The notes below the pieces were generated by a model that did not search any database, had not been told where the DNA came from, and saw only the letters and a program-made list of their open reading frames with translations. This document shows, in pieces, positions 1,570-28,064 of a stretch of DNA of 32,095 nt. How positions within the stretch are numbered: the first letter of the stretch is position 1; every line of letters begins with the position of its first letter. The translations under genes were made by a program, and so were the position numbers. Source of the DNA: Acidimicrobiales bacterium (lineage in GTDB: Bacteria; Actinomycetota; Acidimicrobiia; Acidimicrobiales; VFJN01); contig JAUXRW010000013.1 of assembly GCA_030681555.1 (NCBI GenBank), positions 1-32,095 of the forward strand, read 5' to 3'.

Positions 1570-3438
1570 ATGACCGACATCCACGAGCACACCGGCCACC
1601 AGCGCAGCCCCATCGACAAGGAGGCGTTGCGCCGCAAGTACAGGGAAGAGCGCGACAAGCGCTCACGACCAGACGGGATCGCACAGTACCGCCGGCTCAC
1701 CGGCGATCTGCTGCACGACCCGTACCTGCCCGTGCAGCCGCGTGAGCCTCGCACCGATCACGTGACCTTCACGTTCGTCGGCGGCGGGTTCGCCGGGCTC
1801 GTCACCGGGGCCCGGCTCAAGGAGGCGGGCGTCGACGATGTGCGCATCATCGACAAGGCCGGCGACTTCGGCGGCACCTGGTACTGGAACCGCTACCCGG
1901 GCGCGCAGTGCGACACGGCCTCGTTCGTGTACATGCCCCTGCTCGAAGAGACCGGCCACATGCCGACGGAGAAGTACGCGCACGCGCCGGAGATCCTCGA
2001 GCACTGCCAGCGCATCGGGAAGCAGTACGGCCTCTACGACGACGCCCTGTTCCACACCGAGGTCACCGGGCTGACGTGGGACGACGATGCCCAGGTGTGG
2101 GTGATGACCACCGACCGCGGCGACGAGTTCACGTCGCAGTTCGTCGGCCTGGGTACCGGCCCGCTGCACGTCGCCAAGCTCCCCGACATCCCGGGCATCG
2201 ACAGCTTCCGCGGGCACTCGTTCCACACGAGCCGCTGGGACTACGCCTACACCGGCGGGGGTCCCGAGGGTGAGCCGATGCGTCGCCTTGCTGACAAGCG
2301 GGTCGCCATCATCGGCACGGGCGCTACCGCCGTGCAGTGCATCCCGCACCTGGCCCGCGACGCCGAGGAGCTGTACGTTTTCCAGCGCACGCCATCATCG
2401 GTCGACGTACGCGGCAACGTGCCCACCGATCCTACCTGGTTCGCCTCCATCGCCCAGCCGGGCTGGCAGCAGAGGTGGCTGGAGAACTTCACCGCCAACA
2501 CGATGGGCGGATTCGGCGCCGGCGGCGACGACGACGACCTGATCCAAGACGGCTGGACCGACATCGCCCGACGGGTGAAGGCCAAGGTCTTCGAGCGCAT
2601 GTCCTCGGGCGGCGAGTTCAGCGGCGACACGCTGCTGGACGCCTTCGAGGACGCCGACTTCGAGAAGATGGAGGAGATCCGCGCCCGGGTCGACGCAGTG
2701 GTCGAGGACCCCGCGACCGCGGCAGCCCTCAAATCCTGGTACGGGCAGCTGTGCAAGCGTCCCTGCTTCCACGACGAGTACCTCCAGGCGTTCAACCGCC
2801 CGGGCGCGACCCTCGTCGACACAGACGGCAAAGGTGTCGAGCGGATCACCGAGCGCGGCGTCGTGGCCGGAGGCCGGGAGTATGAGGTCGACTGCATCGT
2901 GTGGGCGACCGGCTTCGAGGTCAGCACCGAGTTCACGTCCCGGGCCGGGTTCGACCTGGTGGGCCGAGGGGGGGTCCGTCTCAGCGAGTACTGGGCCAGC
3001 GGCATGCGTACCCTGCACGGCAGCCACGTGCTCGGCTTCCCCAACGCGTTCCTCGTGCAGCTCACCCAGGGCTCCAACCACATCGCCAACGTCCCCCACA
3101 ACATGAGCGAGACGGGGACCACCATCGCCAAGATCGTCGGGCACGCCGTTGCCCAGGGCCACGCCACCGTGGAGGTGAGCGCGGAAGCCGAGGAGGCCTG
3201 GATCCAGCGCCTGCTGAGTGGCGGGACGCCGCTGGACGGCCTGGGCAGCGGGGGCCGGTCGTTGCAGATCCCCGGTTCGCTGGAGTGCACGCCTGGCTAC
3301 TACAACAACGAAGGCCAGGCACCGACCGCGGCGGCTCGCTACAACTTCCTCGGCTTCCCCGGCGGACCGCTCGCGTTCTTCCAGTACATCGACCGCTGGC
3401 GTCGCTCAGGGGAGTTCGAGGGAGTCGAGTTCCGATGA
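1570..3438 (+). CDS. Baeyer-Villiger monooxygenase (long N-terminal type)
   Basis: A 622-aa flavin- and NADPH-dependent type I Baeyer-Villiger monooxygenase that should convert a ketone to an ester or lactone with O2. The FAD Rossmann motif is GGGFAGL at about residues 71-77, followed by [16 protein letters not shown] at about 98-113. The family fingerprint FxGxxxHxxxW(P/D) is present as [12 protein letters not shown] near residue 213. The NADPH Rossmann motif is GTGATAVQ near 248, and the ATG motif is VWATGFE near 450. About 65 residues precede the first Rossmann fold, including a charged KYREERDKR segment, as in the subgroup of longer BVMOs that act on bulky or large-ring ketones. The ATG start follows a GCAGGCAGG stretch. 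The gene is 17 bp behind the diiron protein. The substrate cannot be read from sequence; neighbours suggest steroid- or terpenoid-like ketones. Confidence 0.93.
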
Positions 3439-5404: not shown

Positions 5405-5479
5405 TCAGTCGGTGGAGAAGCCGCCGTCAGGCTCGACGATCTCCAGTGACGTAATAGGCGTCGTCGGCTGGCTGCTCAT
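5405..5479 (-). CDS. 24-codon small ORF coupled to the MBL-fold gene
   Basis: A 24-residue frame starts MSSQPTTPITSLE and ends EPDGGFSTD. Its ATG (5479-5477) overlaps the TGA of the upstream metallo-beta-lactamase gene in an ATGA junction, and the sequence AGGAAGGTGA lies 7 nt before the ATG, a stronger ribosome site than most genes here have. Both features argue that it is translated. The peptide is acidic at its C-terminal half, has no Cys and no hydrophobic membrane stretch, and does not match the precursor peptides I know (PqqA, with its Glu and Tyr, or MftA, with its C-terminal Val-Tyr). It might be a small subunit, a modified-peptide precursor, or chance. No family can be assigned. Confidence 0.5.
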   Translation of the reverse strand: MSSQPTTPITSLEIVEPDGGFSTD

Positions 5480-6594
5480 GGACGGTCACCTTCCTCGGCG
5501 AGGTCGTAGACGAGCGCGCCATGCTGGCGCCGGGCCCGGGCCGATCCGGCGCGGCGGAGGTGTTCGAGATGGGCGAACACCTCGCTCTCGGCCATCAGCC
5601 CCCACTGGCCGGGTGGGAACAGCGCGTGCGAGAAGGTCTCGACTGTCAGCGCTCCGTCAGCGGCCCCGATCTGGCGCAGGCGGTCGAGACGTTCGTCGTG
5701 ATGTCGGGCGATCTGGGCGGTGCGCGCCGAGAGATCTGTGAAGGGGTGCCCGTGAGCGGGGAGCGCGAGCCCGACGTCGAGACGGGCGACCGTCTCGAGT
5801 GCATCCAGATATTGGCGAAGCGGATCGCGGCCGCACCCGATGCCCGACACGTGCGGGGTGATGGTGGGCAGCACGTGGTCACCGGCGAGCAGAAGGCGGT
5901 GCTCGGGGTCATAGAGGCAGAGGTGGTCCGCCGTGTGGCCGGGGGTGTGCACCGCGAACCAGTCGCGATCCGCCAGCCGGATGGCGGCACCGTCGGTGAG
6001 CAAACGGGTCGGCGTCGGCGCTTGGAGGTACCGGCGCCCGAGTCGCCAAGCCAGCTTCAGGACCGGCCCGGGCACCGACCGGGGAAGCTGTGGCGGGCGC
6101 ATGGCGTCACCGGGCGCCCGCCACGGAACCCGAAGGCGGCCGGGATCGCTCACCGCCATTCCTGTGGTCCCCACGATGTCGTCGCCATCTTCGAGGCTGG
6201 CTACGTCGGGCTCCGCGGGGCCGAGCCACGGCACGTTGAAGTCGGCGTGGGCGACGACGGCGGCGCCGGCTTCGCGCGCCAGCCGGGCGGCACCCCCGAA
6301 GTGATCCGGATGCGAGTGCGTGATGACGACCGTGTGCACGTCGCCCACGCAGAAGCCGGCCCGGCGCAACGCAGCGACGACGGCGCGCCAGGACTGGCGG
6401 CCCGGCATGCCGGGGTCGACCACGGCGAGACCGTGCCGGTCGACCAAGCCGTACATGTTGACGTGCCCTAGGCCGGTGAACTGGATCGGCAACTGCATGC
6501 GAAGCACGCCGGGCGCCACTTCGGTGACCTCGTCGCTGGCCGGTTGCTGCTCTTGCTTGGGCACGCGCTGGCCTGCCGCCTCAGGCGCCCTCAC
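5476..6594 (-). CDS. Metallo-beta-lactamase-fold hydrolase
   Basis: A 372-aa MBL-superfamily protein. The metal-binding motif HxHxDH is present as THSHPDHFGG (His93, His95, Asp97, His98). Further ligands are expected in HTPGHTADHL, in LLLAGDHVLP (bridging Asp) and in LPAHGHPF (last His), so the dinuclear metal site looks complete. The arrangement matches glyoxalase II/thioesterase/lactonase-like members rather than antibiotic lactamases, so hydrolysis of a thioester or lactone intermediate is plausible. The GTG start at 6594 gives a short polar N-terminus; a later start near residue 33 cannot be excluded. It lies 46 bp behind the 102-aa gene of the ferritin-like operon and is likely part of it. 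A 24-codon ORF overlaps its stop. Confidence 0.88.
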   Translation of the reverse strand: MRAPEAAGQRVPKQEQQPASDEVTEVAPGVLRMQLPIQFTGLGHVNMYGLVDRHGLAVVDPGMPGRQSWRAVVAALRRAGFCVGDVHTVVITHSHPDHFGGAARLAREAGAAVVAHADFNVPWLGPAEPDVASLEDGDDIVGTTGMAVSDPGRLRVPWRAPGDAMRPPQLPRSVPGPVLKLAWRLGRRYLQAPTPTRLLTDGAAIRLADRDWFAVHTPGHTADHLCLYDPEHRLLLAGDHVLPTITPHVSGIGCGRDPLRQYLDALETVARLDVGLALPAHGHPFTDLSARTAQIARHHDERLDRLRQIGAADGALTVETFSHALFPPGQWGLMAESEVFAHLEHLRRAGSARARRQHGALVYDLAEEGDRP

Positions 6595-6640
6595 CCGGGG
6601 AGGTCCTGCGAGGGTGCGATGTGAAGGGGTTCGCGGTTGC

Positions 6641-6949
6641 TCACCGTCCGCGTCGGACCAGCTGCAGCACGGCGTCGAACGCCTGCGCCTTCACCGCCTG
6701 CTCGCCGATGGCGGCCAGGATCGTGGCTCCAGCGAGCTCGACGGTCTGCTGGTGGCGCAGGTAGCGCAGCGCCTCCTCCACGACCTGCTCGACAGTGTCA
6801 CCCTGGAAGTCGAAGTCGCCACCCGATCGGAGCACCTCGGGAAGCTGCGCGTAGCCGGCGTCGCGGAGCCGCTGTTCGATCTGCAGCGTCTCCGCCACGG
6901 CACCATCAGCCTCGTAGAGGTCGCGAGGCCGAGACCCCCGCTCCTCCAT
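6641..6949 (-). CDS. Small helical protein of the ferritin-like operon
   Basis: A 102-aa protein without a recognised family. Its ATG (6949-6947) overlaps the TGA of the preceding gene by one base (TGATG), which fixes the start. After a charged N-terminus (MEERGSRPRDLYEADG) it reads as mostly amphipathic helices (ETLQIEQRLRDAG, DTVEQVVEEALRYLRHQQ, AGATILAAIGEQAVKAQAF) with no Cys, no His cluster and no membrane segment. Size and position after two ferritin-like proteins recall a small accessory subunit such as those of multicomponent diiron monooxygenases, but that is by analogy only; I see no sequence link to PaaB. Confidence 0.75.
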   Translation of the reverse strand: MEERGSRPRDLYEADGAVAETLQIEQRLRDAGYAQLPEVLRSGGDFDFQGDTVEQVVEEALRYLRHQQTVELAGATILAAIGEQAVKAQAFDAVLQLVRRGR

Positions 6950-7800
6950 CAGGTAGCCGCGACCTTCGCCACCCCGCGCTTGTCGCGGAGCGCCTTCCCG
7001 AGCACGGCCTTGGCCGGCATGACGACGGCCGAGTGGCCGCCAAGCGTCTGCTCCCCGGCGACCCCCCCAGACCTGACGAGCAGCACATCGAGGTGCGTCT
7101 GCCACTTGCCGGCGCGCTCCCGGAGCTCGGTAGTGCGGGCCAGGTCCTGGATCATCATCTCGCCGGTGATCAGCTGCTCGACGTCGTCGTCGATCATGAA
7201 CTTGAGGATCCGAACCGTCGGAGCGTCCACGATGTCGGAGGTGACACGTTGGTGGAAGCTGTAGGTGGCCAGCAAGTGCGGCACGAGCACCCGGTAGACG
7301 CCCACCAGCTTCTCGATCGTCTCGTCGGGCCCACCCGGGCTCGTCAGCTCGGCCATGAAGGTTTCGAAGGCTTCGTTGACCGGCTCCGCCCGATCCTCTC
7401 TGGTCTCGCGCAGCTCGGGCAGACGCGTCCGCCAGAGATCGGCGTGCCACGCATGCTGGTAGCAGTGAGGGCCGAACATGGCCTTGACGTCGAGCTCGGG
7501 GATGGTTGCCACCCAGCCGCCCAGGGCGGCCGAGAGATGCTGCTCCGCGTACTTGTAGTTCACGATGCGCTCGACAGACTCCTCGACCGACCACTCACCG
7601 ATGAGTCGCCGCCGGTCCCAATAGGGGAACGGCTGAGCGCGTCGGGCGGTGCCGTAACCGGAGACGGCGTCCCTGCGACCGTCGCTCGTACCGTTGGACG
7701 CGGTCGTCTCCGTGGTGGGAGCTGGCGAGCGTGGTGAGGCCTTCTTGCCCTTCGTCGCCTTGGGCGCACCCTTCGACGGCGGGGTGCCCTTGGTCGTCAC
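6949..7800 (-). CDS. Ferritin-like protein without full diiron ligand set
   Basis: A 283-aa protein starting at a GTG (7800-7798) that overlaps the TGA of the previous gene as GTGA; the longer open frame upstream is the shadow of that gene. Residues 1-60 are a Lys/Pro/Thr-rich, probably disordered tail (KGKKASPRSPAPTTETT). The remainder is helical and ferritin-like in outline: YKYAEQHLSAALGGW (about 83-96), a His-rich helix HCYQHAWHADLW (112-123), FHQRVTSD (182-189) and DDDVEQLITGEMMIQ (204-218). The two ExxH motifs of active diiron proteins are missing; the second-helix position reads HAWH. It may be a structural partner of the ferritin-like protein encoded just upstream, as PaaC is to PaaA in phenylacetyl-CoA epoxidase. 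Function is otherwise unknown. Confidence 0.75.
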   Translation of the reverse strand: MTTKGTPPSKGAPKATKGKKASPRSPAPTTETTASNGTSDGRRDAVSGYGTARRAQPFPYWDRRRLIGEWSVEESVERIVNYKYAEQHLSAALGGWVATIPELDVKAMFGPHCYQHAWHADLWRTRLPELRETREDRAEPVNEAFETFMAELTSPGGPDETIEKLVGVYRVLVPHLLATYSFHQRVTSDIVDAPTVRILKFMIDDDVEQLITGEMMIQDLARTTELRERAGKWQTHLDVLLVRSGGVAGEQTLGGHSAVVMPAKAVLGKALRDKRGVAKVAAT

Positions 7801-8675
7801 TTGGACGCCACCACCTTCGGGCCTGCGCCCGCGACGTCGGCGATGTCCTCGTCGGTGAAGCCGGCCAGCTTGCGGAACTCGATGGCCAGCGGGAGGAACT
7901 GCTCGGTGTTGGCTCCGTCGTAGGACCCGCGCAGTCCGCCCAGGCTGAAGGCCCGGTCGACCTTGCGCTGGAAGGCGACGACCTTCTTGCGGCGGTCGGG
8001 ATCGTTCTCCGTCAGCGCCTTGGACCACACCTGCCCGAAGCGGACGTGGGTCACCTCGTCGGCTGCGACGTAGTCGACGGACCGCCAGATCGCCTCGTCG
8101 TCGGCCTGCTTGCCGAAGCGGATCGTGTCGTTGAACACGTCCAGGGCGAGGCCCTCCAGGCAGCGGTTGACGCCGACCACGCGCTCCGCCGGATCGTTGG
8201 AGCACCCGAACTCGAAGAGGAACAGGTTCTCGGAGAACTCCCCGATCTCGCCGCCCACGTGGTCGAGCAGGGCGGAGTAGATCTCCACGTGACGGGTCTC
8301 ATCCCAGCACTGGCGGGCCATGTCGAGCTGAAACTTCCAGGGAAGCTCATCGTCGTCGGTGAAGTCCCAGGCGCTGCGGCCGGCGGCCTCGAGGGCCTGC
8401 ATCTCACCGATGAAAATGCCGTGCATCTGGGTCTTGAGGAACACCGGGGCGTCGTCTTCGTCGGGGCGCACCCGCCTGAAGACGTTGGGAGCGCCGCCGG
8501 TTGCCTGGCCGTCCTCCATCATCTTGCGGACCTCGTCGTTGCCGAGGAGATTCATCATGGTCTCCTCGACCTGTTCGACGGTCACCTCCTCGGCCATCAA
8601 GAAGTCGAGCGGCACTGCCGTGCGGGTGAAGCGCTCGTCGCGCTGCAGCTCGTCGGGAACCATGAACTTCTTCAT
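7797..8675 (-). CDS. Ferritin-like diiron protein (putative oxygenase)
   Basis: A 292-aa ferritin-like protein with a complete diiron ligand pattern: E91 (FIGEMQALE), E126-x-x-H129 (DETRHVE), E174 (CLEGLAL) and E207-x-x-H210 (DEVTHVRFG). This E/ExxH/E/ExxH set is that of carboxylate-bridged diiron oxidases and oxygenases. DETRHVEIY and DEVTHVRFG resemble actinobacterial ferritin-like families of the DUF455 and AurF kind, but I cannot fix the family. Its ATG overlaps the ferredoxin stop (ATGA), and its own stop overlaps the next GTG, so ferredoxin, this protein and the next ferritin-like protein are probably made together in fixed ratio. The likely role is O2 activation with electrons from the ferredoxin; the substrate is unknown. 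Confidence 0.82.
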   Translation of the reverse strand: MKKFMVPDELQRDERFTRTAVPLDFLMAEEVTVEQVEETMMNLLGNDEVRKMMEDGQATGGAPNVFRRVRPDEDDAPVFLKTQMHGIFIGEMQALEAAGRSAWDFTDDDELPWKFQLDMARQCWDETRHVEIYSALLDHVGGEIGEFSENLFLFEFGCSNDPAERVVGVNRCLEGLALDVFNDTIRFGKQADDEAIWRSVDYVAADEVTHVRFGQVWSKALTENDPDRRKKVVAFQRKVDRAFSLGGLRGSYDGANTEQFLPLAIEFRKLAGFTDEDIADVAGAGPKVVASK

Positions 8676-8968
8676 ACGTTGCCTCCCTGGTCGACCAGGA
8701 TCGATTGCCAGTTCTCGAGGATGAACGGGCGGTTGGAATCACGGACGGCCTCGGCCCCGGGCGCATCCATCGGGATGATGGCGTCGACCGGGCACGGGTC
8801 GAGGCAGCGGTTGCAGCTCGGGCACTGCGAACCATCCACCACGTACTCGAGGTCGTCACTCATGAAGATGGCGTCGTAGGGGCAGACGCGCTCGCAGATA
8901 CCGCACTCGATGCAACCATCGATGATCACGTACGGCGCGCCGTGGCGCTTGCTGAACGTCCGGGCCAT
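8672..8968 (-). CDS. 2x[4Fe-4S] ferredoxin
   Basis: A 98-aa bacterial-type ferredoxin with two cluster motifs: C19-x2-C22-x2-C25-x3-C29-P and C49-x2-C52-x2-C55-x3-C59-P. It would hold two [4Fe-4S] clusters and serve as a soluble low-potential electron carrier. The C-terminal 38 residues (from IPMDAPGAEAV) extend past the cluster domain and may dock a partner. It heads the operon; its stop overlaps the start of the diiron ferritin-like gene, which makes that protein the obvious electron acceptor (inference). No Shine-Dalgarno is visible before the ATG, and the predicted transcription start lies at about the ATG, so the message is probably leaderless. Confidence 0.92.
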   Translation of the reverse strand: MARTFSKRHGAPYVIIDGCIECGICERVCPYDAIFMSDDLEYVVDGSQCPSCNRCLDPCPVDAIIPMDAPGAEAVRDSNRPFILENWQSILVDQGGNV

Positions 8969-9043: not shown

Positions 9044-10498
9044 TCAGCTCGCGACGTAATCGCCGGGCACGGAGATCGACTTGTACTCGAGGTAGGGTGC
9101 CAGACCCTCAGGGCCGAGCTCCCGGCCGATGCCGGACTGCTTGAACCCGCCGAAGGGTGCAGCGAGGTTCATGCCCAACCCGTTCACTGCGAAGCTGCCG
9201 GTGCGGATGCGCCGGGCCAGGGCCACACCCCGCTCGGTGTCGCCCGACCACACGGCTCCCGAGAGCCCGTAGATGCTGTCGTTGGCCAGTTGCACGGCGG
9301 CATCGTCGCCCTCGTAGGGGATGACCGCGAGGACGGGGCCGAAGATCTCCTCCTGTGCGATGCGCATCCCGTTGTCGACACCGACGAACACCGTCGGCTC
9401 GACGTAGTGGCCGCCGGCCAGCCCACTGGGCACACCACCGCCCGTGGCCACCTTCGCTCCCTCACGCTCCCCGATGTCGATGTAGCCGAGCACCCGCTCC
9501 TGCTGGCGCGCCGACACCATGGGACCGACGGTGGTGGTGGGGTCTCTCGGGTCACCGACGACCATCGCATCGAAGAGGGCCACGACGCGCTCGACCACTT
9601 CGTCGTGACGCGCTCGGGGCACCAGCAAGCGGGTCTGGGCGACACAGGTCTGCCCCGAGTTGAGGGTGGCCGCCTGGACCGCCCCGGGGACAGCCAGATC
9701 CAGATCGGCGTCGTCGAGGAGGATGCACGCCGACTTCCCGCCGAGCTCCAGGGTGACTCGGCGCACCGATTCCGCGCAGATGCCCATGATGCGCCGACCG
9801 GTGGCGGTGCTACCAGTGAAGCTGATCTTGTCCACGCCAGGATGGCCAACGAGCGCCTCTCCGACCTCGCGCCCTGCGGGTAGCACGTTGAGGACGCCCG
9901 GCGGCAGCCCGACGGCCTCGACCGCCTCGGCCAACAGATAGATGTCGAGTGGTGTCTCGGGCGCCGGCTTGATCACCACCGTGCACCCCGCCAGCAGCGC
10001 CGGGGCGACCTTGGCGAGGGTGAGGTAGAAGGGATAGTTCCAGGGCACGATCGCACCCACGACGCCGACGGGTTCCTGGACGACGATGCTCGGCCCGAGC
10101 ATGCCCGGCCGCACGTCCTCGGTGGCGTAGGTGCGACCCAGGTTGACGTAATAGTCCAGGAACATCATCGGGACCATCGCCTGGACCATCGTCGAGAACG
10201 AGATGGGAGTGCCGACCTCCTCGGTCACCAGCGCGGCCAGTTCTGCCTGGCGGCCGTTGAGCTCACCGTGCACCCGTCCGAGCTGTTCAGCCCGCTCGGC
10301 CATGGTGAGCCGAGGCCACGGGCCCTCGTCGAAGGCGCGCCGAGCGGCGGCGACAGCCCGATCGAGGTCGGTCAGGTTGGCCTCGGGTACCGAGCCGACG
10401 ATCTGTCCGTCGGCAGGAGAACGAACCTCGATCCTCTCAGAAGAGTCCGACGGGGTGAAGGCCCCGTCGATGAACAGCTCGCGTCGCTCGATGACCAT
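9044..10498 (-). CDS. NAD(P)-dependent aldehyde dehydrogenase
   Basis: A 484-aa ALDH-superfamily enzyme oxidising an aldehyde to its acid. Diagnostic motifs: PWNYPFYL near residue 153, the cofactor-binding GSTATGRRI, the general base Glu in TLELGGKSA (about 251) and the catalytic Cys in SGQTCVAQ (about 285). IFGPVL and the C-terminal APFGGFKQSGIGRELG are also typical. Length is normal. The ATG is preceded by GGAGGAGAACC, a strong ribosome site, and by a clear promoter. It is a single-gene unit between the ferredoxin operon and the Mce-associated genes. It may oxidise aldehydes arising from alcohol or side-chain breakdown; the exact substrate cannot be read. Confidence 0.93.
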   Translation of the reverse strand: MVIERRELFIDGAFTPSDSSERIEVRSPADGQIVGSVPEANLTDLDRAVAAARRAFDEGPWPRLTMAERAEQLGRVHGELNGRQAELAALVTEEVGTPISFSTMVQAMVPMMFLDYYVNLGRTYATEDVRPGMLGPSIVVQEPVGVVGAIVPWNYPFYLTLAKVAPALLAGCTVVIKPAPETPLDIYLLAEAVEAVGLPPGVLNVLPAGREVGEALVGHPGVDKISFTGSTATGRRIMGICAESVRRVTLELGGKSACILLDDADLDLAVPGAVQAATLNSGQTCVAQTRLLVPRARHDEVVERVVALFDAMVVGDPRDPTTTVGPMVSARQQERVLGYIDIGEREGAKVATGGGVPSGLAGGHYVEPTVFVGVDNGMRIAQEEIFGPVLAVIPYEGDDAAVQLANDSIYGLSGAVWSGDTERGVALARRIRTGSFAVNGLGMNLAAPFGGFKQSGIGRELGPEGLAPYLEYKSISVPGDYVAS

Positions 10499-10577: not shown

Positions 10578-11108
10578 TCAGGTGACCTCGACGTTGCTGG
10601 CTCGCCAACCGTCTGGTGTCTCGACCAGCGTGACCTCCACCCGGAGGCGCTGCGTGGTGGGCTCGGTCTGCTTGCCCTTGACCTGTTGCTCCACGACCGA
10701 GAACAGCCTGGCTTCGTGATCCTCCAGCGAGGCCACCATCGGACCGACCGCGATCTCGCCGGCGGCCACGGCCTCGTTCGAGCGCAGGGCATCGCTGAGC
10801 CCGCTGCCGTCGAGGAGCTGCTCGAACTGCAGCTCGAAGCTGGGAAGCGCATCGGCCAGTACGGCTTCACGGGACGCATCGAGGTCGTTGTAGTCATAGC
10901 TCGTGATCCCCACGGTCACCCGCTGGCCGACCTCGAGCAGGTCGTCACGACGTTCCCTTTCCGATGGAGCGGCCAACGCGCCCACCAGGGCCGCCACGGC
11001 GGCGACCAACGCGAGCAGGGCAGCCAGCGCCCATGAGACGGCGTGGGCCCCGTGTAGATTCGAGCGGTGCGCCTCCCCCGCCTCCCCCGCCCGCGGCGTC
11101 TCTACCAC
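10578..11108 (-). CDS. Mce-associated membrane protein
   Basis: About 176 aa from a GTG at 11108; the open frame continues further upstream without a convincing start, so the N-terminus is uncertain. One membrane helix (WALAALLALVAAVAALVGAL, about residues 20-40) is followed by an extracytoplasmic domain with ITSYDYNDLDASREAVL and SFELQFEQLL, ending in RLRVEVTLVETPDGWRASNVEV. This is the layout of actinobacterial Mce-associated proteins, which accompany mce operons and are thought to help assemble or stabilise the Mce transporter. It lies on the same strand as the mce operon but is separated from mceF by a second Mce-associated gene of opposite direction, with which its 5' end overlaps by about 40 bp. 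Confidence 0.75.
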   Translation of the reverse strand: MVETPRAGEAGEAHRSNLHGAHAVSWALAALLALVAAVAALVGALAAPSERERRDDLLEVGQRVTVGITSYDYNDLDASREAVLADALPSFELQFEQLLDGSGLSDALRSNEAVAAGEIAVGPMVASLEDHEARLFSVVEQQVKGKQTEPTTQRLRVEVTLVETPDGWRASNVEVT

Positions 11109-11636
11109 AGCCGCGTCGCGGCCGGGATCGCCCTCGTCCTCGCCGCTGCGGCCGCCGGAACGGCTGTCCGGAGCCTCCTCGATGACGACGCCCTCCCCGA
11201 GGCCCCGCCCAGCACGGTCGACCTCGTCAGCGACTTCGCCGTCGCCGTCACGTCCTTCGATCATCGAACTGCCGCTCAGGACATCGCCGAGGTGCTCGAT
11301 CTCGGAACCCGTGGGTTCGAGTCCGAGTTCCGGAACGCGATGGGCGACGACTTCCTCAGCGGGATCGAGGGGTCCAAGTCCGTCAGCGTGAGCCAGATCG
11401 TCGCCGGGCCCACGCTGCAGAGTCGGGTCGATGAATCGAGCACCTTCCTGGTCGTCGTCAACCAATCCATCTCCACTCAGGTCGAAGGGCCGGCATCCAG
11501 CGAGCCAGCGTCGCAGGACACCTCTACTACGGCGTCGCCCGCCACGCCGGCGGCCGCTCCTCGCGTCGTGCGCGTGGGGATGCTCGTCACCGTCGACGAG
11601 GCGTCATCCAAGGTCGAGAGCGTCCAGATCCTTTGA
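11067..11636 (+). CDS. Mce-associated membrane protein (inverted paralogue)
   Basis: A 189-aa protein from GTG 11067. A basic N-terminus (RLPRLPRPRRLYHSR) precedes one membrane helix (VAAGIALVLAAAAAGTAV). The outer domain has VTSFDHRTAAQDIAEVLDL and GFESEFRNAM, which line up with ITSYDYNDLDASREAVL and SFELQFEQLL of the neighbouring - strand gene, so the two look like distant paralogues. A Ser/Thr/Pro/Ala-rich linker of about 30 residues (near 145-172) interrupts the last strands, and the protein ends in VTVDEASSKVESVQIL. It converges on mceF with only 31 bp between stops. Such genes normally follow mceF in the same direction, so this orientation is unusual. Confidence 0.75.
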   Translation: MRLPRLPRPRRLYHSRVAAGIALVLAAAAAGTAVRSLLDDDALPEAPPSTVDLVSDFAVAVTSFDHRTAAQDIAEVLDLGTRGFESEFRNAMGDDFLSGIEGSKSVSVSQIVAGPTLQSRVDESSTFLVVVNQSISTQVEGPASSEPASQDTSTTASPATPAAAPRVVRVGMLVTVDEASSKVESVQIL

Positions 11637-11667
11637 GCGCCCGGGGCATCCGCGCCGCCCAGGTCGG

Positions 11668-12873
11668 TCATGGGCGCGGTGCGACCGTCGGCGTGAGCGT
11701 GATGCCGGCGGCGTCGGCCTCTCGCTGCTGGATGGCCAGCAGCTGCACCGGATCGCTCGCTGCGGCGGCCGAGTCCTCCGGGCCCAACAGCTGGATAATC
11801 CCGGCCGGAGGGGTACCGCCCAGGTCGATCGTGACCCGCTGCGCCAGTGTGGGCGCCACGATCCGGTCGATCCGCAGGCCCGAGCCATAGATCGGGACGC
11901 CGAAGCGAGGCTGGAACCCTGGGAAGAAGACCGTGCCTCCGCCCGCTGACAGCCAGAAGTTGCCGCCCTCGAAAGTGAGGCCGAACCGGGTGATCATGAG
12001 CGGCGTCAGCGCGATCGTCTCCCGAACCCGCCCCGGTCGATCCGCGAGGTTGCTCAGCGTCACGTCGAGGCCTTCCAGCACGTCTCGCACGTCGGGGCGG
12101 ATATCGGCGATGAACCCGGATGCCGATTCGCCGAGGTCGGCGCCGGTGGCGAGGATCGAGGCCAGCTCGTCGGTGCGGGCGGCGAGCACCGTACCGAGCC
12201 GATCGAAGCCGACGATGCTGCGATCGAGAGCTGTGCGGTGCTCGTCGAGGGTGGAGACCAGCTGGGCTGCGTTGGCGGTCAGGGTGCCGAGCTCGGTTCG
12301 ACGCGCCGCGAGGACCTCCGAGATGTCGGCCGCGTCGGCAAGCAGGCTCTGCAGGTCTGCCTCGTGTCCGATGATGCCCGATGCCCCGTCGAGAAAGCGT
12401 TCGAGCTGTGTCGGGTCGACCCGGGAAAGCAGCCGGTCGGCGCTCCCGAGCAACGTGTCGAGGGACCGGGGGACGCCGACCCGCTCGAGGGGGATCGTCG
12501 AGCCATTCGGGTCGCCCACCGGTGTGGTCGGGAGAGCGGGGGCCAGGTCCACGTAGGGCTCGCCCAGTGCGCTCTTCTGGCGGATGTCCGCACGGAGCAC
12601 CTTCGCCATGGGACCGGCCGGGGTCAGCTCCAGCTCGATCCGGACCCCCCCGGGCACCAGATCGCTCGAGGTGACGCTGCCGGCCCGGACGCCCAGGTAG
12701 GTGACCTCAGCTCCCGGGAGCGCCCCCGCTGCGGTCGGGGCGATGAGGCTGATCCGGGTCGGCTTCGCGAACGGGTCGATTTCAGCCAGCCCGACCACCG
12801 CCCAGGCCACGGCCACGAAGCCGACGACGGTGATGAGCACCACGTTGACGATCTGGCGCAGGGTGAGCTTCAA
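11668..12873 (-). CDS. mceF: Mce family protein, sixth of operon (MceF position)
   Basis: A 401-aa Mce protein: one N-terminal membrane helix (VVLITVVGFVAVAWAVVGL, about 11-29), an MlaD/Mce beta-barrel domain at about 38-115 (LPGAEVTYLGVRAGSV; SALGEPYVDLAP), then a long helical region with repeated Leu/Ala heptads (about 135-270) that in the family builds the hydrophobic tunnel carrying lipid across the periplasm-like space. The C-terminal part contains GGNFWLSAGGGTVFFPGF. The letter is assigned by position, not by sequence. It is the last gene of the operon and converges with a Mce-associated gene. The ATG overlaps the mceE stop by 4 nt. Confidence 0.88.
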   Translation of the reverse strand: MKLTLRQIVNVVLITVVGFVAVAWAVVGLAEIDPFAKPTRISLIAPTAAGALPGAEVTYLGVRAGSVTSSDLVPGGVRIELELTPAGPMAKVLRADIRQKSALGEPYVDLAPALPTTPVGDPNGSTIPLERVGVPRSLDTLLGSADRLLSRVDPTQLERFLDGASGIIGHEADLQSLLADAADISEVLAARRTELGTLTANAAQLVSTLDEHRTALDRSIVGFDRLGTVLAARTDELASILATGADLGESASGFIADIRPDVRDVLEGLDVTLSNLADRPGRVRETIALTPLMITRFGLTFEGGNFWLSAGGGTVFFPGFQPRFGVPIYGSGLRIDRIVAPTLAQRVTIDLGGTPPAGIIQLLGPEDSAAAASDPVQLLAIQQREADAAGITLTPTVAPRP

Positions 12874-14051
12874 GGTTGCCCTCCTGAACCGCTGCGCTGC
12901 ACGACGCCGAGCAGCATGTCGACCATCCCGGAGCCGGATGCCGCGCGTGACCCGGCGTGGCCGTTGGCGCTGCCCGCCCCGATGTCGATGTTGCCTGTGC
13001 CCAGCGGGTCGTCCAGGTTCGGGGCAGTAACGCCCGTGACGCTGATCTGGCCATCACGTTCGCGCCCGTTCGGGCCCGCCTCCGGTTCGGCACACCGATC
13101 TGGGTTGGTCTCCACCGTGGCCAGCTCGGGTGTGAGTGGGAAGAGGAAGTTCAGGTAGTCGCCGTCAGAGGCGCAGGACCAGCCCCGGTTGAAGCCGGGG
13201 AGCCCCGTGACCACCGACCGCAGGTCATCGAGGTTGGCCACTACCTCCCCCAGCAGCGGGACAATCTGGTCGAAGGCCCGAACCATGGACACCTGGTTGC
13301 GCTCCAGGAGCCCCGACAGCTCGGCCGAGAGTCGCTGGACCTGGTCGATCACGGCGGGGATCTGGTGGTTCGAGCGAGCCAGGGCCTCAGCGCCGGCCGC
13401 GAACCGGTCGATGGCCACACCGTACCGGTCCGTGTCGGGAGCCAGCCGGGCGGCGAGCGTGTCCACGGCCTCGATGGCGCGACCCAGGTCCTCACGGGAC
13501 TGCGATAAGGCGTTGGCTGCGCCCGCCGACGCATCGAAGAAGCGCTGAAGGCGCGTGGGGTCGCTGCCAACACCGCGGTCGGCGGCAGCTAGGACACGGT
13601 TGAGGTTGTCGACGTTGACCTCGGCGGTGAGCTGGCCGCCCAGCTCGACCAAGGTCTCCAGCTCCTGGCCGCGGCTCGTCCGCTCGAGGGGAATCGTGGC
13701 CCCGCGGGCCAGGCGTCCGGTTCCTTCGGGGCGCAGCTCGATGAACTGCTCGCCCAAGAGGCTGGTCTGGCGGACCTCTGCGGTGGTGGCCGCTGGCAGC
13801 GCTCGGCCGTCATCGACCTCGATGTCGACGATAGCGACGAGCCCGTCGAGCTCGATTGCCGTGACCCGACCGACGATCACGTCGTCGAGGCGAACGTCGT
13901 TGCGCGCGACCAGGCCGGTCGCGTCGGCCAGTTCCACGCGGTACGGCACGGTGTGGTCAGCCAGGCTGTTCAGGATGAAGGGCGTCGCCGCGATTGCCGC
14001 GGCGACGAAGAACCCCACCCGCACCAGGGTCACCACCCGACGTCGGTTCAC
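12870..14051 (-). CDS. mceE: Mce family protein, fifth of operon (MceE position)
   Basis: A 393-aa Mce protein with an N-terminal helix (VGFFVAAAIAATPFILNSLA), MlaD domain at about 37-110 (RNDVRLDDVIVGRVTAIEL; SLLGEQFIELRPEG), helical tunnel region to about 285, then NRGWSCASDGDYLNFLFPL and a Gly/Ser/Ala-rich tail. In mycobacteria the fifth Mce protein is usually a lipoprotein with a lipobox Cys near the N-terminus; no Cys occurs in the first 40 residues here, so this one is anchored by its helix. Start and stop overlap both neighbours by 4 nt. Confidence 0.88.
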   Translation of the reverse strand: MNRRRVVTLVRVGFFVAAAIAATPFILNSLADHTVPYRVELADATGLVARNDVRLDDVIVGRVTAIELDGLVAIVDIEVDDGRALPAATTAEVRQTSLLGEQFIELRPEGTGRLARGATIPLERTSRGQELETLVELGGQLTAEVNVDNLNRVLAAADRGVGSDPTRLQRFFDASAGAANALSQSREDLGRAIEAVDTLAARLAPDTDRYGVAIDRFAAGAEALARSNHQIPAVIDQVQRLSAELSGLLERNQVSMVRAFDQIVPLLGEVVANLDDLRSVVTGLPGFNRGWSCASDGDYLNFLFPLTPELATVETNPDRCAEPEAGPNGRERDGQISVTGVTAPNLDDPLGTGNIDIGAGSANGHAGSRAASGSGMVDMLLGVVQRSGSGGQP

Positions 14052-15244
14052 GGCCCCGCCTCGCCGTCGCCGTCGGCGTCGAGCGCGATCGGCCCGATCT
14101 GCGTGTCCGGGAGCAACGGGCCCGTTCCGAGGTGGGGCGTCAGGTCGAACTGCTCGGGCACGGCCTCATCGGCGACTCCGTCGGTGAAGTCGACCTCGGG
14201 GACGACACGGTTGTCGCCCGTCTCGGAGCCGGGTCCGCCCCGAGAGTTCATGTTCGGGATGAAGGGTGCGAAGAACGTCCCGGTGACCTGCGGCTGGAGG
14301 AACCAGCGACCGTTGTCCTGGTGGATGGCCCGAGCGAAGCCGTAGCTGGCCAGCGGCAAGTACTCGATGACCTGCTTCCAGTCCTCCTCGTGCGCAGTGA
14401 GGATCTCTCCGGTCCGCGCGAGCACGTCGACCGACGAGGTCAGCCCGGCTCGCTGACCCCTCGTGAACTCGGTCAGCTCACCCAACATCCGGTCGAGGCC
14501 CTCCACGGCGCCGTCGAGGGCGCCGTCCTGGGCGACCAGTGCCTCGGTCACGACGGCGCCGCGCTCGAGGAGGGAGGCGATCCGGTCGTCGCGGGTCGCC
14601 AGGTTCGCGAGCACCCGGTCGGTCGCCACCAAGGTGTCGTCGAGGCGGTCCAGGTTGGCCTGCAAGGCCGCGCCCGCTCCCGAGAGCTCGGTCACGAACC
14701 CGGCCAGCACATCGCGATCACCACCGAAGGCCGTGGCCAGGCGCTCGACCACGCCCTGCACGGCCACGGGATCGAGCTCCTCGGTCACGCGGGTGGCCTC
14801 ATCGAGGACGTCGGAGATCTCCGCCGGAACCACCGTGCGGTCAAGCGGGATCGTCGCACCGTCAGCCAGCTGGGCTCCCTCCCCGGTCCACGTGGGACCC
14901 AGCTCGACGAAGCGCTCGCCGATCAGCGAGCGGAGGCGGAGCGTGGCGGTGGCGTCGGCCACGAGGGGCACGTCGTCGACGTGCATCGTCACCTCCACCC
15001 GGTCGGCCAGCGGCTCCACGTCGGTCACCATGCCGGCCTCGAGCCCGTCGACGTAGACCCGCGACTGCGGGTAGAGCCCGACGGCCCGGGGGAACTCGGC
15101 CACGACGGTGAAGCGACCTGGAGAGAACGGGTCGGACACGTCAACGGCAATGGCCTGACCGGCCAGGCTCAGGGTTGAGATCCCGGTCGCCAAGACGACG
15201 ACGGCGACCACGAGGCGTCGGACGGTGGATGTGTCGGGGGTCAT
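14048..15244 (-). CDS. mceD: Mce family protein, fourth of operon (MceD position)
   Basis: A 398-aa Mce protein. An N-terminal hydrophobic helix (LVVAVVVLATGISTLSLAG) is followed by the MlaD domain at about 44-120 (YPQSRVYVDGLEAGMVTDVEPL; SLIGERFVELGPTW) and a long helical segment (about 135-275). The C-terminal region contains YGFARAIHQDNGRWFLQPQVTG and an acidic tail. It forms one of the six stacked subunits expected in a heterohexameric Mce tunnel. ATG overlaps the mceC stop by 4 nt. Confidence 0.88.
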   Translation of the reverse strand: MTPDTSTVRRLVVAVVVLATGISTLSLAGQAIAVDVSDPFSPGRFTVVAEFPRAVGLYPQSRVYVDGLEAGMVTDVEPLADRVEVTMHVDDVPLVADATATLRLRSLIGERFVELGPTWTGEGAQLADGATIPLDRTVVPAEISDVLDEATRVTEELDPVAVQGVVERLATAFGGDRDVLAGFVTELSGAGAALQANLDRLDDTLVATDRVLANLATRDDRIASLLERGAVVTEALVAQDGALDGAVEGLDRMLGELTEFTRGQRAGLTSSVDVLARTGEILTAHEEDWKQVIEYLPLASYGFARAIHQDNGRWFLQPQVTGTFFAPFIPNMNSRGGPGSETGDNRVVPEVDFTDGVADEAVPEQFDLTPHLGTGPLLPDTQIGPIALDADGDGEAGP

Positions 15245-16392
15245 CGTCCGTACCCTTCGGGGGGCGGAATGGTGCGGTCGTCGCCGGTGCGAACGGTGGC
15301 CACGCCGGGCACCACCAGCTCGTCGGGCAGGAGCATGAGCGGGGTCTGTCCCGGATCCAGCTGGAGGCGGGGCAGCCCTCCCGTCTCCCCTGGTTCACCG
15401 CTCGTGCGGCTCCCCAGATCGACCGGATTGGTGAGGAAGGGGCTGGCGACGACGCCGACGATGTACACGTTCACCCACGACCCTTCCCGGGTCGTGTTGT
15501 AGAACCGCTCCGCCACGATCGGCAGCGAACCCAACGCGAGGTCGATGCGATGTCGCTGGGCGTCGAGCACCTGCGTGGTCTCGACGAGACCCGACACGAA
15601 GCGGTCCAGGGTGGCGCCGTTGCGGTCGAGCAGCGGGGTGACGGTGGACGAGAGGTCGCTCACCCCGGCCACGAGCGACCGCAGCTCGATCTGGCGTGCG
15701 GCCAGGACGCCGAGGACCACGTCGACCCCGTCGATGGCGGTGTTCACTTCACCTTCACGAGCCTGGAGGGCGCCGGACAGGCGAGCCGTGCCGTCCAGAA
15801 GACGCTGCAGATCGGCTTCGCTGTCGGCGACGCTCGCCGCGAGCATCTCCATATCGCCGAAGAGCGAGCGGAGCTGTTCGGCGCGCCCGTCGTCGAGGAC
15901 GTCGACGGTGGAGCGCATCACGGCGTTGATCGAGTCGACGTCCGTGCTCTCGATCACCGGTTCAGCGGAGTTGAGGAGGGTATCCACGTCGGTGGCCACT
16001 TCTGTGTGCTCGAGTGGGATCTTGGCCCCCTGGCGCAGAGGATCGCCGGCGCCGGCGTCGGCCAGGTTGAGGTACTTCCGGCCCAGCAACGTCCGCAGCC
16101 GGATCGATGCTCGAACCGACTGGGACACCTCGACGCCTTGTTGGAGACGAAGCTTGGCCACGACCGTCCCCTCCTCGGGACGACGGTCGATGGCGGCGAC
16201 CGACCCCACGTTCACCCCGGCGACCCTCACCGGGTCACCGGTCTCGAGACCCGACGCGGAACTGAACTCGGCCGTCACGGTGTAGGTCTTCTCGAAGAGG
16301 TGGAGGCCACCGACGGAGAAGGTGAAGGCCGTCAAGGCCAGCGTCAGGAGTACACCGATGATGCCGCAGCGGCGCAGGTTCCGAAACGTCAT
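15241..16392 (-). CDS. mceC: Mce family protein, third of operon (MceC position)
   Basis: A 383-aa Mce protein with membrane helix GIIGVLLTLALTAFTFSVGG (about 10-29), MlaD domain at about 36-112 (TGDPVRVAGVNVGSVAAI; TLLGRKYLNLADAG), helical tunnel region to about 290, then EGSWVNVYIVGVVASPF, a motif shared with the MceB-position protein (QGSWFQVYARGVGI). The tail is Pro/Gly-rich. 4-nt overlaps link it to mceB and mceD. Confidence 0.88.
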   Translation of the reverse strand: MTFRNLRRCGIIGVLLTLALTAFTFSVGGLHLFEKTYTVTAEFSSASGLETGDPVRVAGVNVGSVAAIDRRPEEGTVVAKLRLQQGVEVSQSVRASIRLRTLLGRKYLNLADAGAGDPLRQGAKIPLEHTEVATDVDTLLNSAEPVIESTDVDSINAVMRSTVDVLDDGRAEQLRSLFGDMEMLAASVADSEADLQRLLDGTARLSGALQAREGEVNTAIDGVDVVLGVLAARQIELRSLVAGVSDLSSTVTPLLDRNGATLDRFVSGLVETTQVLDAQRHRIDLALGSLPIVAERFYNTTREGSWVNVYIVGVVASPFLTNPVDLGSRTSGEPGETGGLPRLQLDPGQTPLMLLPDELVVPGVATVRTGDDRTIPPPEGYGR

Positions 16393-20502: not shown

Positions 20503-21645
20503 TCACTCCCGCTGCAGGACGTGGATGACGCAGACGGAGCCGGCACCCATCATGTGGGCCAGGCCGGTTCGAGCCCCTTCGACCTGGCAGCCGTCCGCTT
20601 CGCCCCGAAGCTGGCGGGTGACGTCGAAGATCTGGGCCAGCCCCGTCGGTCCGCCGGGGTGGCCCCGGGCGGTCAAGCCCCCGTCGGTCGAGAACGGGAT
20701 CCGACCTCCGAGCGCCGTGGCCCCCTCGGCGACCAGCTTGTCGCCCTCGCCATCACCGCAGACACCGAGCAGCTCGTAGTACATCAGCTCCTCGATGGGG
20801 AAGGCGTCGTGCACGTGCACCAGGTCCAGATCGGCCGGCCCGAGCCCCGCTTGCTCGTACGCAGCGCGCGATGTCGTTCGCGTCAGCTCCCCCGGTCCGA
20901 CCACGGCGCCCATGAACACGTGTCCGTCGGTGTAGCGCTCGGTCTCCTGGGCGGAGGCGGCGACCCGGACGAGGGGCCGGCTCGCGGCTACCCGCTCGGC
21001 GACCGACCGGGAGGCAACGATGGCACACGCCGCACCGGCCCCCGCGGCGCAGGCCATCTTCGAGGTGTGCGGGTAGGCGATCATCCTCGATGCGAGCACC
21101 TCCTCCACGGTGACCTCGTGGTCCGCCCGTCGCTGGGCCAAGGGGTTGTGCCTCGCGTGGTTCCAGTTCTTGGCCGCGATCTGCGCGAACGTCTCGACGG
21201 TGGTCCCGTAGTCGTGCATCCGGCGCGTGGCCCACATGGCGAAGAAGGCAGCCGGCAGCATCACAGTCTCCACGCCCGGCTTGAACAGGCCCGGGCCGCC
21301 CATGCGGTTCATGTCGTCGAAGCCGAGGGCCATCGCCACCTCGGCATGACCACCCGCGACCTGCAGCACGGCCTCGCGAAACGCCGAGGAGCCCGTGGCA
21401 GAGGCGTTCTCCACGTGGACGATCGGCAGACCGGTCAGACCGAAGTCCTTGGCCACGGTTATCCCCGCCAGGAGGCCACCCCCGCCGATGTACCCGTTGT
21501 AGAGCACCCCCACGTCGTCGAAGCGGATTCCGGCATCGGCGAGCGCGGCCACACCGGCCTCGAAGGCCAGGTCCCCGACCGGCACCTCGTGCTGACCGAA
21601 CGGCGTCATGCCGACACCGATGACATAGACGTCATCCAGCATCAT
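20503..21645 (-). CDS. SCP2-thiolase-like protein (putative retro-aldolase)
   Basis: A 380-aa thiolase-fold protein of the SCP-x/lipid-transfer (Ltp) group. The C-terminal motif GGLTARGHPGGPTGLAQI and HVHDAFPIEELMYYELLG are family-typical. The nucleophile position, normally Cys in a NNNCATGS-like motif, reads VENASATGSS with Ser82, so ordinary thiolysis is unlikely. Ltp2-type members paired with a DUF35 protein act as retro-aldolases removing the end of a steroid side chain, and this gene starts inside the stop of a DUF35 gene (ATGA overlap), matching that pairing. The Tyr residues in MYYELLG could take part. Substrate and reaction are inferred from family and context. Confidence 0.88.
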   Translation of the reverse strand: MMLDDVYVIGVGMTPFGQHEVPVGDLAFEAGVAALADAGIRFDDVGVLYNGYIGGGGLLAGITVAKDFGLTGLPIVHVENASATGSSAFREAVLQVAGGHAEVAMALGFDDMNRMGGPGLFKPGVETVMLPAAFFAMWATRRMHDYGTTVETFAQIAAKNWNHARHNPLAQRRADHEVTVEEVLASRMIAYPHTSKMACAAGAGAACAIVASRSVAERVAASRPLVRVAASAQETERYTDGHVFMGAVVGPGELTRTTSRAAYEQAGLGPADLDLVHVHDAFPIEELMYYELLGVCGDGEGDKLVAEGATALGGRIPFSTDGGLTARGHPGGPTGLAQIFDVTRQLRGEADGCQVEGARTGLAHMMGAGSVCVIHVLQRE

Positions 21646-22073
21646 GCGGCACCCGCGGCGGCGAGGGGCGCGAACCGGAACGTCAAGAGATCGGTGCCTT
21701 CCTCGTCCTGCATGACCGGATACAGCTCGAGGGCGACGGGCATGCCGATCTCCCAGTCACCCATGTCGCCACCGAGGACGGTCTGGACGCGCACCCCTTC
21801 GGGGAGGTCCACCTGGCCCACCCCGTGGCCCTCGAGGTCGCCCATGCGGTTCTTGCCCATCCAGGGAGACACGACGAAGGTCCATGAGTACAGGACGCCC
21901 TCTGGCGACAGTTCGACGTCGACGACGGCCTCCTGGCTGACCGGGCACCGACGGCGCCGAGGGAAGAAGTGGAGGTCAGCGGTCGGGCTGTAGGACCCGA
22001 GGAGGCGAGGTGGGCCGTCTCCATCGGCAGGCACGGTGAAGTAGCCCTGTTCCAATGCACGGCTCGTTGCCAT
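21642..22073 (-). CDS. DUF35 OB-fold protein, partner of the thiolase-like protein
   Basis: A 143-aa protein from ATG 22073, chosen because GAGGAGGA lies 5-6 nt upstream; an earlier ATG at 22124 has no ribosome site. It contains LHFFPRRRRCPVSQ followed by an OB-fold-like beta region (VLYSWTFV, GVGQVDLPEGVRVQTVL, MPVALELYPV, TDLLTFRFAPL). DUF35 proteins usually carry an N-terminal rubredoxin-like zinc ribbon with four Cys; only one Cys remains here (CPVSQ), so the metal site is lost. DUF35 domains bind acyl-CoA and partner SCP2-thiolases or aldolases, consistent with the downstream overlap. The SDR is transcribed divergently. Confidence 0.82.
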   Translation of the reverse strand: MATSRALEQGYFTVPADGDGPPRLLGSYSPTADLHFFPRRRRCPVSQEAVVDVELSPEGVLYSWTFVVSPWMGKNRMGDLEGHGVGQVDLPEGVRVQTVLGGDMGDWEIGMPVALELYPVMQDEEGTDLLTFRFAPLAAAGAA

Positions 22074-22124
22074 CGATGTCCTCCTCGGCTCCCCTGCCTG
22101 ATCGCCGCCTGGCTTCGAGTCCAT

Positions 22125-26833: not shown

Positions 26834-26906
26834 TCACACGCCACCTGTTGCATGACGCGGGGACGATGCGCTTGGATGGCCGCCCACACCGTTCTTGGGG
26901 GAAGCC

Positions 26907-28064
26907 GTGCGCACCGCTGTCACCGATCTGCTCGACATCGAGTTCCCGATCCTCGCCTTCAGCCACTGTCGAGATGTCGTGGCCGCGGTCACCAACGCCG
27001 GGGGACTCGGCGTCCTGGGTGCGGTGGCCCACACGCCCGAGCAGCTGGAGATCGATCTGCAGTGGATCGAGGAGCAGGTGCGGGGCAAGCCCTACGGCGT
27101 TGACCTGCTCATCCCCACTCACTACGTGGGCGAGGACACGGGCGGGCTGGACGCCACCTCGTTGAGCGAGCTTCTCCCAGACGCGCACCGCCGCTGGCTC
27201 GATGAGCTGCTCGAGCGCTTCGACATCCCGGCTCTCCCGGCCAAGGACGGCGACGGAACCGCCCGCGAGTTCGCGGGGATGCGGATCGACCCCAAGAGCA
27301 TGGCCCCGCTCCTCGACGTCGCCTTCGGGCACTCGATCTCGCTCATCGCGAGCGCGCTGGGCCCGCCGCCGCCGTACCTGATCGAGCGGGCCAATGCCTC
27401 GGGTGTGGTCGTCGCGGCGCTGGCCGGAGCCACCGAGCACGCCGTCCGCCACGCAGCTGCCGGTGCCGATCTGATCATCGCCCAGGGCACCGAGGCGGGG
27501 GGCCACACGGGGCAGGTGGCCACGATGGTCCTGGTGCCAGAGGTGGTGGACGCGGTTGCGCCGGTTCCAGTCCTGGCCGCAGGCGGCATCGGTCGTGGTC
27601 GCCAGCTGGCGGCATCGCTGGCCCTCGGCGCCGAAGGCGTCTGGTGCGGGTCGGTCTGGCTCACCACGCAGGAGGCCGAGACACCTCCCGTCGTGCAGCA
27701 GAAGTACCTACGCGCGACGTCGAGCGACACCGTGAGGTCCAAGTCGATCACCGGCAAGCCCGCTCGGATGCTGCGGACGCCATGGACGGATGCGTGGGAG
27801 CAGCCGGACGGCCCGGGGCCTCTGCCCATGCCACTGCAGCCGATGTTGGTCGGGGAGGCCCTGCGGCGGATCAACCGCGTCGCCCATCATCCCGGGAGCG
27901 GGGCCGAGGATCTCGTCACCTACTTCGTGGGCCAGATCGTGGGATCGATGAACGAGGTGCAGTCGTCGGGCCGCGTGGTGCTCGAGATGATCGATGAGAT
28001 GATCGACGCCGTCCAACGGGTCGACCGGCTCCTCACTGCTGACCGTGCCAGCCTGGAGACATGA
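26907..28064 (+). CDS. Nitronate monooxygenase-like FMN protein
   Basis: A 385-aa TIM-barrel flavoprotein of the nitronate monooxygenase/2-nitropropane dioxygenase family. Typical features are the N-terminal PILAFSHCRDVVAAVTNAGG, AALAGATEHAVRHAAAGADL, AQGTEAGGHTGQVATMVLVP near residue 192, LAAGGIGRGRQLAASLALGA (phosphate binding) and GVWCGSVW. Family members oxidise alkyl nitronates, but many actinobacterial copies sit in lipid or steroid catabolic clusters with unknown, perhaps enoyl-reductase-like, roles. The C-terminal 110 residues extend beyond the minimal barrel. GTG 26907 is preferred because the family usually begins just before LLDIEFPI and GGGGGAAG precedes it; TTG 26895 is an alternative. 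It converges with the acyl-CoA dehydrogenase. Confidence 0.85.
   Translation: MRTAVTDLLDIEFPILAFSHCRDVVAAVTNAGGLGVLGAVAHTPEQLEIDLQWIEEQVRGKPYGVDLLIPTHYVGEDTGGLDATSLSELLPDAHRRWLDELLERFDIPALPAKDGDGTAREFAGMRIDPKSMAPLLDVAFGHSISLIASALGPPPPYLIERANASGVVVAALAGATEHAVRHAAAGADLIIAQGTEAGGHTGQVATMVLVPEVVDAVAPVPVLAAGGIGRGRQLAASLALGAEGVWCGSVWLTTQEAETPPVVQQKYLRATSSDTVRSKSITGKPARMLRTPWTDAWEQPDGPGPLPMPLQPMLVGEALRRINRVAHHPGSGAEDLVTYFVGQIVGSMNEVQSSGRVVLEMIDEMIDAVQRVDRLLTADRASLET

Follow-up and report, generated by a model that had tools for sequence, protein, structure and literature searches.

A putative ferredoxin-fed diiron oxygenase of the DUF455 family and its partner proteins in Acidimicrobiia

A stretch of 32,095 nucleotides from an Acidimicrobiales bacterium (assembly GCA_030681555.1, contig JAUXRW010000013.1, positions 1 to 32,095 of the forward strand; hereafter the window) encodes on its minus strand a tightly packed set of four genes: a ferredoxin with two [4Fe-4S] clusters (Fd), a ferritin-like protein of the DUF455 family (A), a second, apparently degenerate, ferritin-like protein (B) and a protein of 102 residues (the small protein). 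We think it rather probable that their products make up a ferredoxin-fed, lineage-restricted, multicomponent diiron oxygenase complex working on a lipid-derived coenzyme A (CoA) thioester, an activity and a substrate suggested by metal ligands and gene context. The four-gene core is solid and, although its mechanistic class is a known one, the unit itself appears to be undescribed. In the mechanism that we propose, the enzyme would be soluble and O2-activating: A would hold the diiron site and do the chemistry, B would pair with it as a ferritin-like structural partner no longer keeping a complete site, the small protein would serve as a bridging or effector subunit, and electrons from the ferredoxin would reduce the diiron site. 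Such an enzyme would probably hydroxylate, epoxidize or desaturate an acyl-CoA derived from a lipid, a terpenoid or a steroid within the surrounding catabolic island. Complex formation, electron flow, O2 chemistry and a CoA-bound substrate are all features that we infer.

Gene order and distribution

The genes follow one another as Fd (positions 8672..8968, minus strand, 98 residues; Pfam Fer4_21, E=1e-10), A, the putative catalytic subunit (7797..8675, minus, 292 residues; PF04305, E=7.9e-21), B (6949..7800, minus, 283 residues, GTG start, recognized by its profile match to A) and the small protein (6641..6949, minus). A first-pass annotation of the window had described them as coupled by overlapping stop and start codons, and the junctions read just so: ATGA between Fd and A, GTGA between A and B, TGATG between B and the small gene. 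This coupling goes beyond chance, since the overlaps recur elsewhere, that of A with B in three of five other loci (L036, L046, L047) and that of B with the small gene in all four that reach the latter (L036, L047, L048, L049).

Of 148 Acidimicrobiia genomes searched for B, 42 gave a match, and the strong matches fell into two arrangements. Type 1, the order Fd-A-B-small, is present in that sample in the genome of the window, in G114 (locus L036) and in G004 (L037, which shares its contig with L049); L046, L047 and L048 came from scanning species genomes in a collection of 84,980. There are six independent type-1 loci in all, counting the window. The full order is kept at 49-84% identity in L036, L047, L048 and L049, and L046 displays Fd-A-B at 76-87% identity, its contig ending just after B. 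Separation of the genes in relatives would have spoken against the first-pass annotation; the four-gene order is instead kept in related genomes. The ferredoxin, which has two 4Fe-4S motifs and is the sole electron carrier encoded in the unit, has homologues at 70-76% identity in the five other loci; it occurs in 3 of the 148 Acidimicrobiia genomes, all of them operon carriers, and, in a sample of 346 genomes from the phylum, in the genome of the window only. The small protein was found in the same three genomes out of 395 Acidimicrobiia. It is a regular follower of B, with homologues directly after B in four other loci; these share an invariant KAQAFDA-type motif, and the protein has no credible match in Pfam or, searched as a profile, in the PDB. 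In trees of A and B, the type-1 proteins form one clade each, with support 1.0. The two proteins also co-diverge: over 28 A-B pairs their distances correlate with r=0.96, a value driven largely by the two types, and with 0.81 and 0.73 within types.

The second arrangement, type 2, is a B-A pair, reversed relative to type 1, with neither ferredoxin nor small protein in its flanks. In many Acidimicrobiia it occupies a core locus, close to nadE and to the gene for a sigma-70 factor, usually followed by a gene for a 200-residue protein without known family (for example L042:9583-11894), and this set is probably a housekeeping diiron unit. The genome of the window carries both types, the second pair being on contig 52. 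Identity between the types is 40-45% for A, which keeps the same ligands and again belongs to DUF455 (67.3 bits), and 46-55% for B. In a type-1-carrying genome, a B-like gene stands without A, flanked by nadE and the sigma factor gene (L069:1474-2109), apparently an eroded core locus.

The ferritin-like proteins

Protein A is a member of DUF455 (PF04305), with 75.2 bits against a gathering cut-off of 34.3. The claim that it keeps an E/ExxH/E/ExxH set of diiron ligands is borne out by conservation: none of E91, E96, E126, H129, E174, E207 and H210 is replaced in any of the 28 full-length homologues, which include both types, and the pattern would be E96 (or E91), E126xxH129, E174 and E207xxH210. 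In PaaA the pair E42/E72 gives a spacing of 30 residues to ExxH (PMC4498308), which by analogy E96 would suit better than E91. The predicted structure places the ligands on four long helices (78-104, 113-140, 162-190 and 194-222), so that A displays both the four-helix bundle and the ligand pattern of the ferritin-like superfamily, in a model of low confidence (predicted local distance difference test, pLDDT, 48). Its closest folds by Z score are R2lox and ADO, with MiaE among the structural neighbours; at the sequence level, the curated R2lox model gives only 16.3 bits for a cut-off of 194. Searching PDB sequences with profiles of A and of B brought up nothing meaningful; a match of A to Crov588 was discarded, as this is a repeat protein and the match looks like an artefact. 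The literature searched held no functional study of DUF455, COG2833, PF04305 or diiron enzymes of Acidimicrobiia, and nothing there places A in a characterized non-oxygenase family, the other finding that would have told against the first-pass annotation.

Protein B matched no Pfam or NCBIfam family. Compared with A by profile, it gives E=2.4e-4 and a probability of 44, and its model (pLDDT 62) has a ferritin-like fold, whose Z scores against R2lox, ADO and the T4MO beta subunit are about 15. The predicted folds of both A and B are nearest to R2lox, ADO and the T4MO/MMO hydroxylases, in models of low to middling confidence, and for helical bundles Z values of 12-16 indicate the fold class only; Foldseek returned no match at E<=0.001, and PaaA or PaaC chains appear only low in the list for B. 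Among 33 homologues of B, E86, H116, H183, D205 and E214 are invariant and H119 is kept in 32. Matched to A through that same weak profile alignment (probability 44), B keeps E86, H116xxH119 and an acid at position 206 (D/E206), while the glutamate of helix 3 is replaced, mostly by V, I, L or A, and the histidine of helix 4 by Q, D, N or G. The full ferritin-like ligand set is therefore missing from B, though the predicted fold is similar. Because the ligands are partly lost while fold and profile still match A, we read B, on its sequence, as a degenerate remote homologue in which the remaining polar residues are still conserved. The earlier statement that this protein lacks the ligands is right for the complete set and too strong for E86, H116xxH119 and the acid at 206.

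Known systems and rival explanations

In the Paa system, PaaA is the catalytic, PaaC the structural and PaaB the bridging subunit, and in another system the diiron CoA epoxidase BoxB has as its donor BoxA, a protein with two [4Fe-4S] clusters (PMC4498308). The resemblance to PaaABC noted at first reading holds for the layout: a putative catalytic ferritin-like subunit, a degenerate homologue, a third subunit of about 100 residues, an iron-sulphur donor and a CoA-catabolism setting are all there. It does not extend to detectable homology. In Pfam, neither A nor B displays PaaA/PaaC homology (PF05138) at E<=1, nor does the small protein match PaaB at that threshold, and the PF05138 matches of the genome of the window are on contig 97 only. 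Furthermore, no PaaE-type reductase is encoded in the unit, where a free 2x[4Fe-4S] ferredoxin is the only donor, whereas PaaE is a flavin adenine dinucleotide (FAD)/[2Fe-2S] reductase. BoxAB offers another likeness, that of a two-[4Fe-4S]-cluster donor for a diiron enzyme acting on a CoA thioester (PMC4498308). However, BoxA is a large FAD-containing reductase and Fd a small ferredoxin, matching only the ferredoxin part of the BoxA equivalog (38 bits vs 459); BoxB needs no structural subunit, and A gives no match to the BoxB equivalog. The four-gene set would work like PaaABC or BoxAB and yet belong to neither; the Paa and Box systems are precedents for its working mode, not evidence of membership. 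By contrast, A is above the curated cut-off of DUF455, a family without assigned function in which the coupled set is confined to one clade. It is quite possible, though we hold this more tentatively, that a separate multicomponent diiron oxygenase lineage arose within DUF455, found only in Acidimicrobiia and close actinobacteria and devoted to the breakdown of a lipid- or terpenoid-derived CoA ester, and that it reached the layout of active, degenerate, small and iron-sulphur components without common descent from PaaABC or the bacterial multicomponent monooxygenases. If true, the plan of an active protein plus a degenerate partner would have a further, independent example among diiron oxygenases. 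For DUF455 the analysis offers an enzymatic hypothesis that can be tested, in which the partners and the electron donor are named, and the operon may mark an O2-dependent step through which Acidimicrobiia, a little-cultured class of actinobacteria, degrade lipids, terpenoids or steroids.

Other explanations have to be weighed. The ferritin-like pair might serve iron handling, peroxide defence or an RNA modification of the MiaE kind, and have been duplicated into a catabolic island with a ferredoxin serving that same role. The paralogous B-A pair of the core locus, present in many Acidimicrobiia including the genome of the window, speaks for this, as does MiaE among the structural neighbours of A. 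The operon type nevertheless forms a separate clade and has a ferredoxin and a small protein of its own, and its patchy spread (3 of 395 genomes) among CoA-catabolism neighbours suits a catabolic role, which makes this explanation unlikely in our judgement. ADO receives electrons from ferredoxin, and this dependence, together with R2lox and ADO being the nearest folds by Z, favours an A that would act alone as a single-component oxidase, deformylating or desaturating enzyme, B being a chaperone or regulator. That reading must contend with the translational coupling of B and the small protein to A, with the co-divergence of B and A, and with a score of 16 bits against the R2lox cut-off of 194; we give it about the same low standing. 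Still less credible is a B that binds metal in an altered site (E86, H116, H119, D/E206, perhaps H183), in a complex with two different metal sites. The invariance of E86, H116, H183, D205 and E214 (33/33), and of H119 (32/33), would fit, but not the replacement of the helix-3 glutamate (mostly V/I/L/A) and of the helix-4 histidine (Q/D/N/G), at positions taken from a weak profile alignment (probability 44).

The ferredoxin-fed complex that we prefer has its own difficulties. The known loci number only six, most of them in metagenome-assembled genomes; the model of A is poor (pLDDT 48); the unit encodes no reductase that could feed the ferredoxin. No characterized DUF455 enzyme turned up in the literature searched, the chemistry being drawn from ligands and context, and the proposed substrate from the gene neighbourhood. 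Moreover, since the core B-A pair exists in far more genomes, where it lacks this ferredoxin and the small protein, A-B as such is independent of them. Of the undescribed acyl-CoA or steroid oxygenase system first proposed, there remain the conserved order, the pair of a catalytic-looking and a degenerate protein, the small protein, the dedicated ferredoxin and the CoA-catabolism setting; its hydrolase and micro-ORF drop out as fixed parts.

Flanking genes and the catabolic neighbourhood

That hydrolase, of metallo-beta-lactamase (MBL) fold, is encoded at 5476..6594 on the same minus strand (PF00753, E=1.1e-24), 46 nt after the small gene, and by eye it keeps the metal motifs HSHPDH, GHT, GDH and HGH. 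In L047, an MBL gene 70% identical follows the operon on the same strand, beyond a Mutator-type transposase and a reverse transcriptase, presumably of group II intron type (L047:11123-14856), insertions that may have split an older adjacency. Other genes follow the operon in L048 and L049, where no MBL gene is adjacent, and L036 has a relative at 32% identity about 9 kb away. Linked in two loci only, the MBL protein was rejected as a fixed subunit and is a facultative associate; where present, it could hydrolyse a later ester, thioester or lactone. The micro-ORF (5405..5479, minus, 24 codons) had been seen as prolonging the unit. It overlaps the stop of the MBL gene by ATGA but has no homologue in any fetched locus, and was rejected as a gene for want of support. 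On the other side, an aldehyde dehydrogenase gene (9044..10498, minus; PF00171, E=6.4e-157) is found on the same strand, 75 nt upstream of Fd, and is possibly co-transcribed with it in the window; it is absent from the other type-1 flanks.

Further away, the window encodes a thiolase-like protein (20503..21645, minus; Thiolase_C_1, E=2.4e-35), its partner of the DUF35 type, akin to the C-terminal OB-fold of ChsH2 (21642..22124, minus; PF01796, E=1e-8, 35.4 bits vs cut-off 27.1), and a flavoprotein of the nitronate monooxygenase type (26895..28064, plus; PF03060, E=4.6e-51). Copies of the thiolase-like gene (69-78% identity) with a DUF35-type gene beside them (53-64%) are near the operon in L036, L049 and L047, the flavoprotein recurs in L036 (77%) and L047 (65% over 130 residues), and acyl-CoA dehydrogenases at 37-50% identity are found near type-1 loci, some of which also have ligase, alpha/beta-hydrolase, P450, enoyl-CoA hydratase or Baeyer-Villiger genes. 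In 11 type-2 flanks none of these four (thiolase-like, DUF35-type, flavoprotein, acyl-CoA dehydrogenase) had a match; among the window genes tested outside A/B, only the aldehyde dehydrogenase did. Because CoA-catabolism genes recur and an Mce/YrbE importer is present, the neighbourhood points to import and CoA-ester breakdown of a hydrophobic substrate, be it a sterol, a terpenoid or a fatty acid; we do not claim a steroid as the definite one.

The thiolase-like protein has a serine at the usual nucleophilic cysteine (ENASATG), conserved in all four copies seen, and judging from this sequence it is probably not a true thiolase. Orthologues at least 73% identical are found in G000, G114 and G004, and in G110, which lacks type 1. 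With this serine and a ChsH2-C-type OB-fold protein beside it, it recalls the retro-aldolases Ltp2 and Sal (PMC12329534); the motif at their YDHF/YDCY site reads HDAF here, and by that test the protein is neither. The YrbE/Mce lipid importer cluster (10578-20402, minus) lies upstream of the operon, with two permeases and six MCE proteins, and unclassified proteins at 10578-11465 (minus) and 11067-11636 (plus) may be Mce-associated. A Baeyer-Villiger monooxygenase (1570-3435, plus) resembles PtlE, a terpenoid lactone-forming enzyme (718 bits vs cut-off 1100). Before it, a 372-residue protein (434-1549, plus) shows by eye E/H motifs of ferritin-like appearance, has no Pfam or NCBIfam match, and is possibly a further metalloenzyme; two homologues, one of them 54% identical, adjoin the type-1 operon in L037/L049. 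At the end of the window there is an AurF/R2lox-like ferritin-like protein (31109-32095, plus; PF11583, E=2.8e-8), a weak relative of DUF455, so that the window may hold four ferritin-like proteins.

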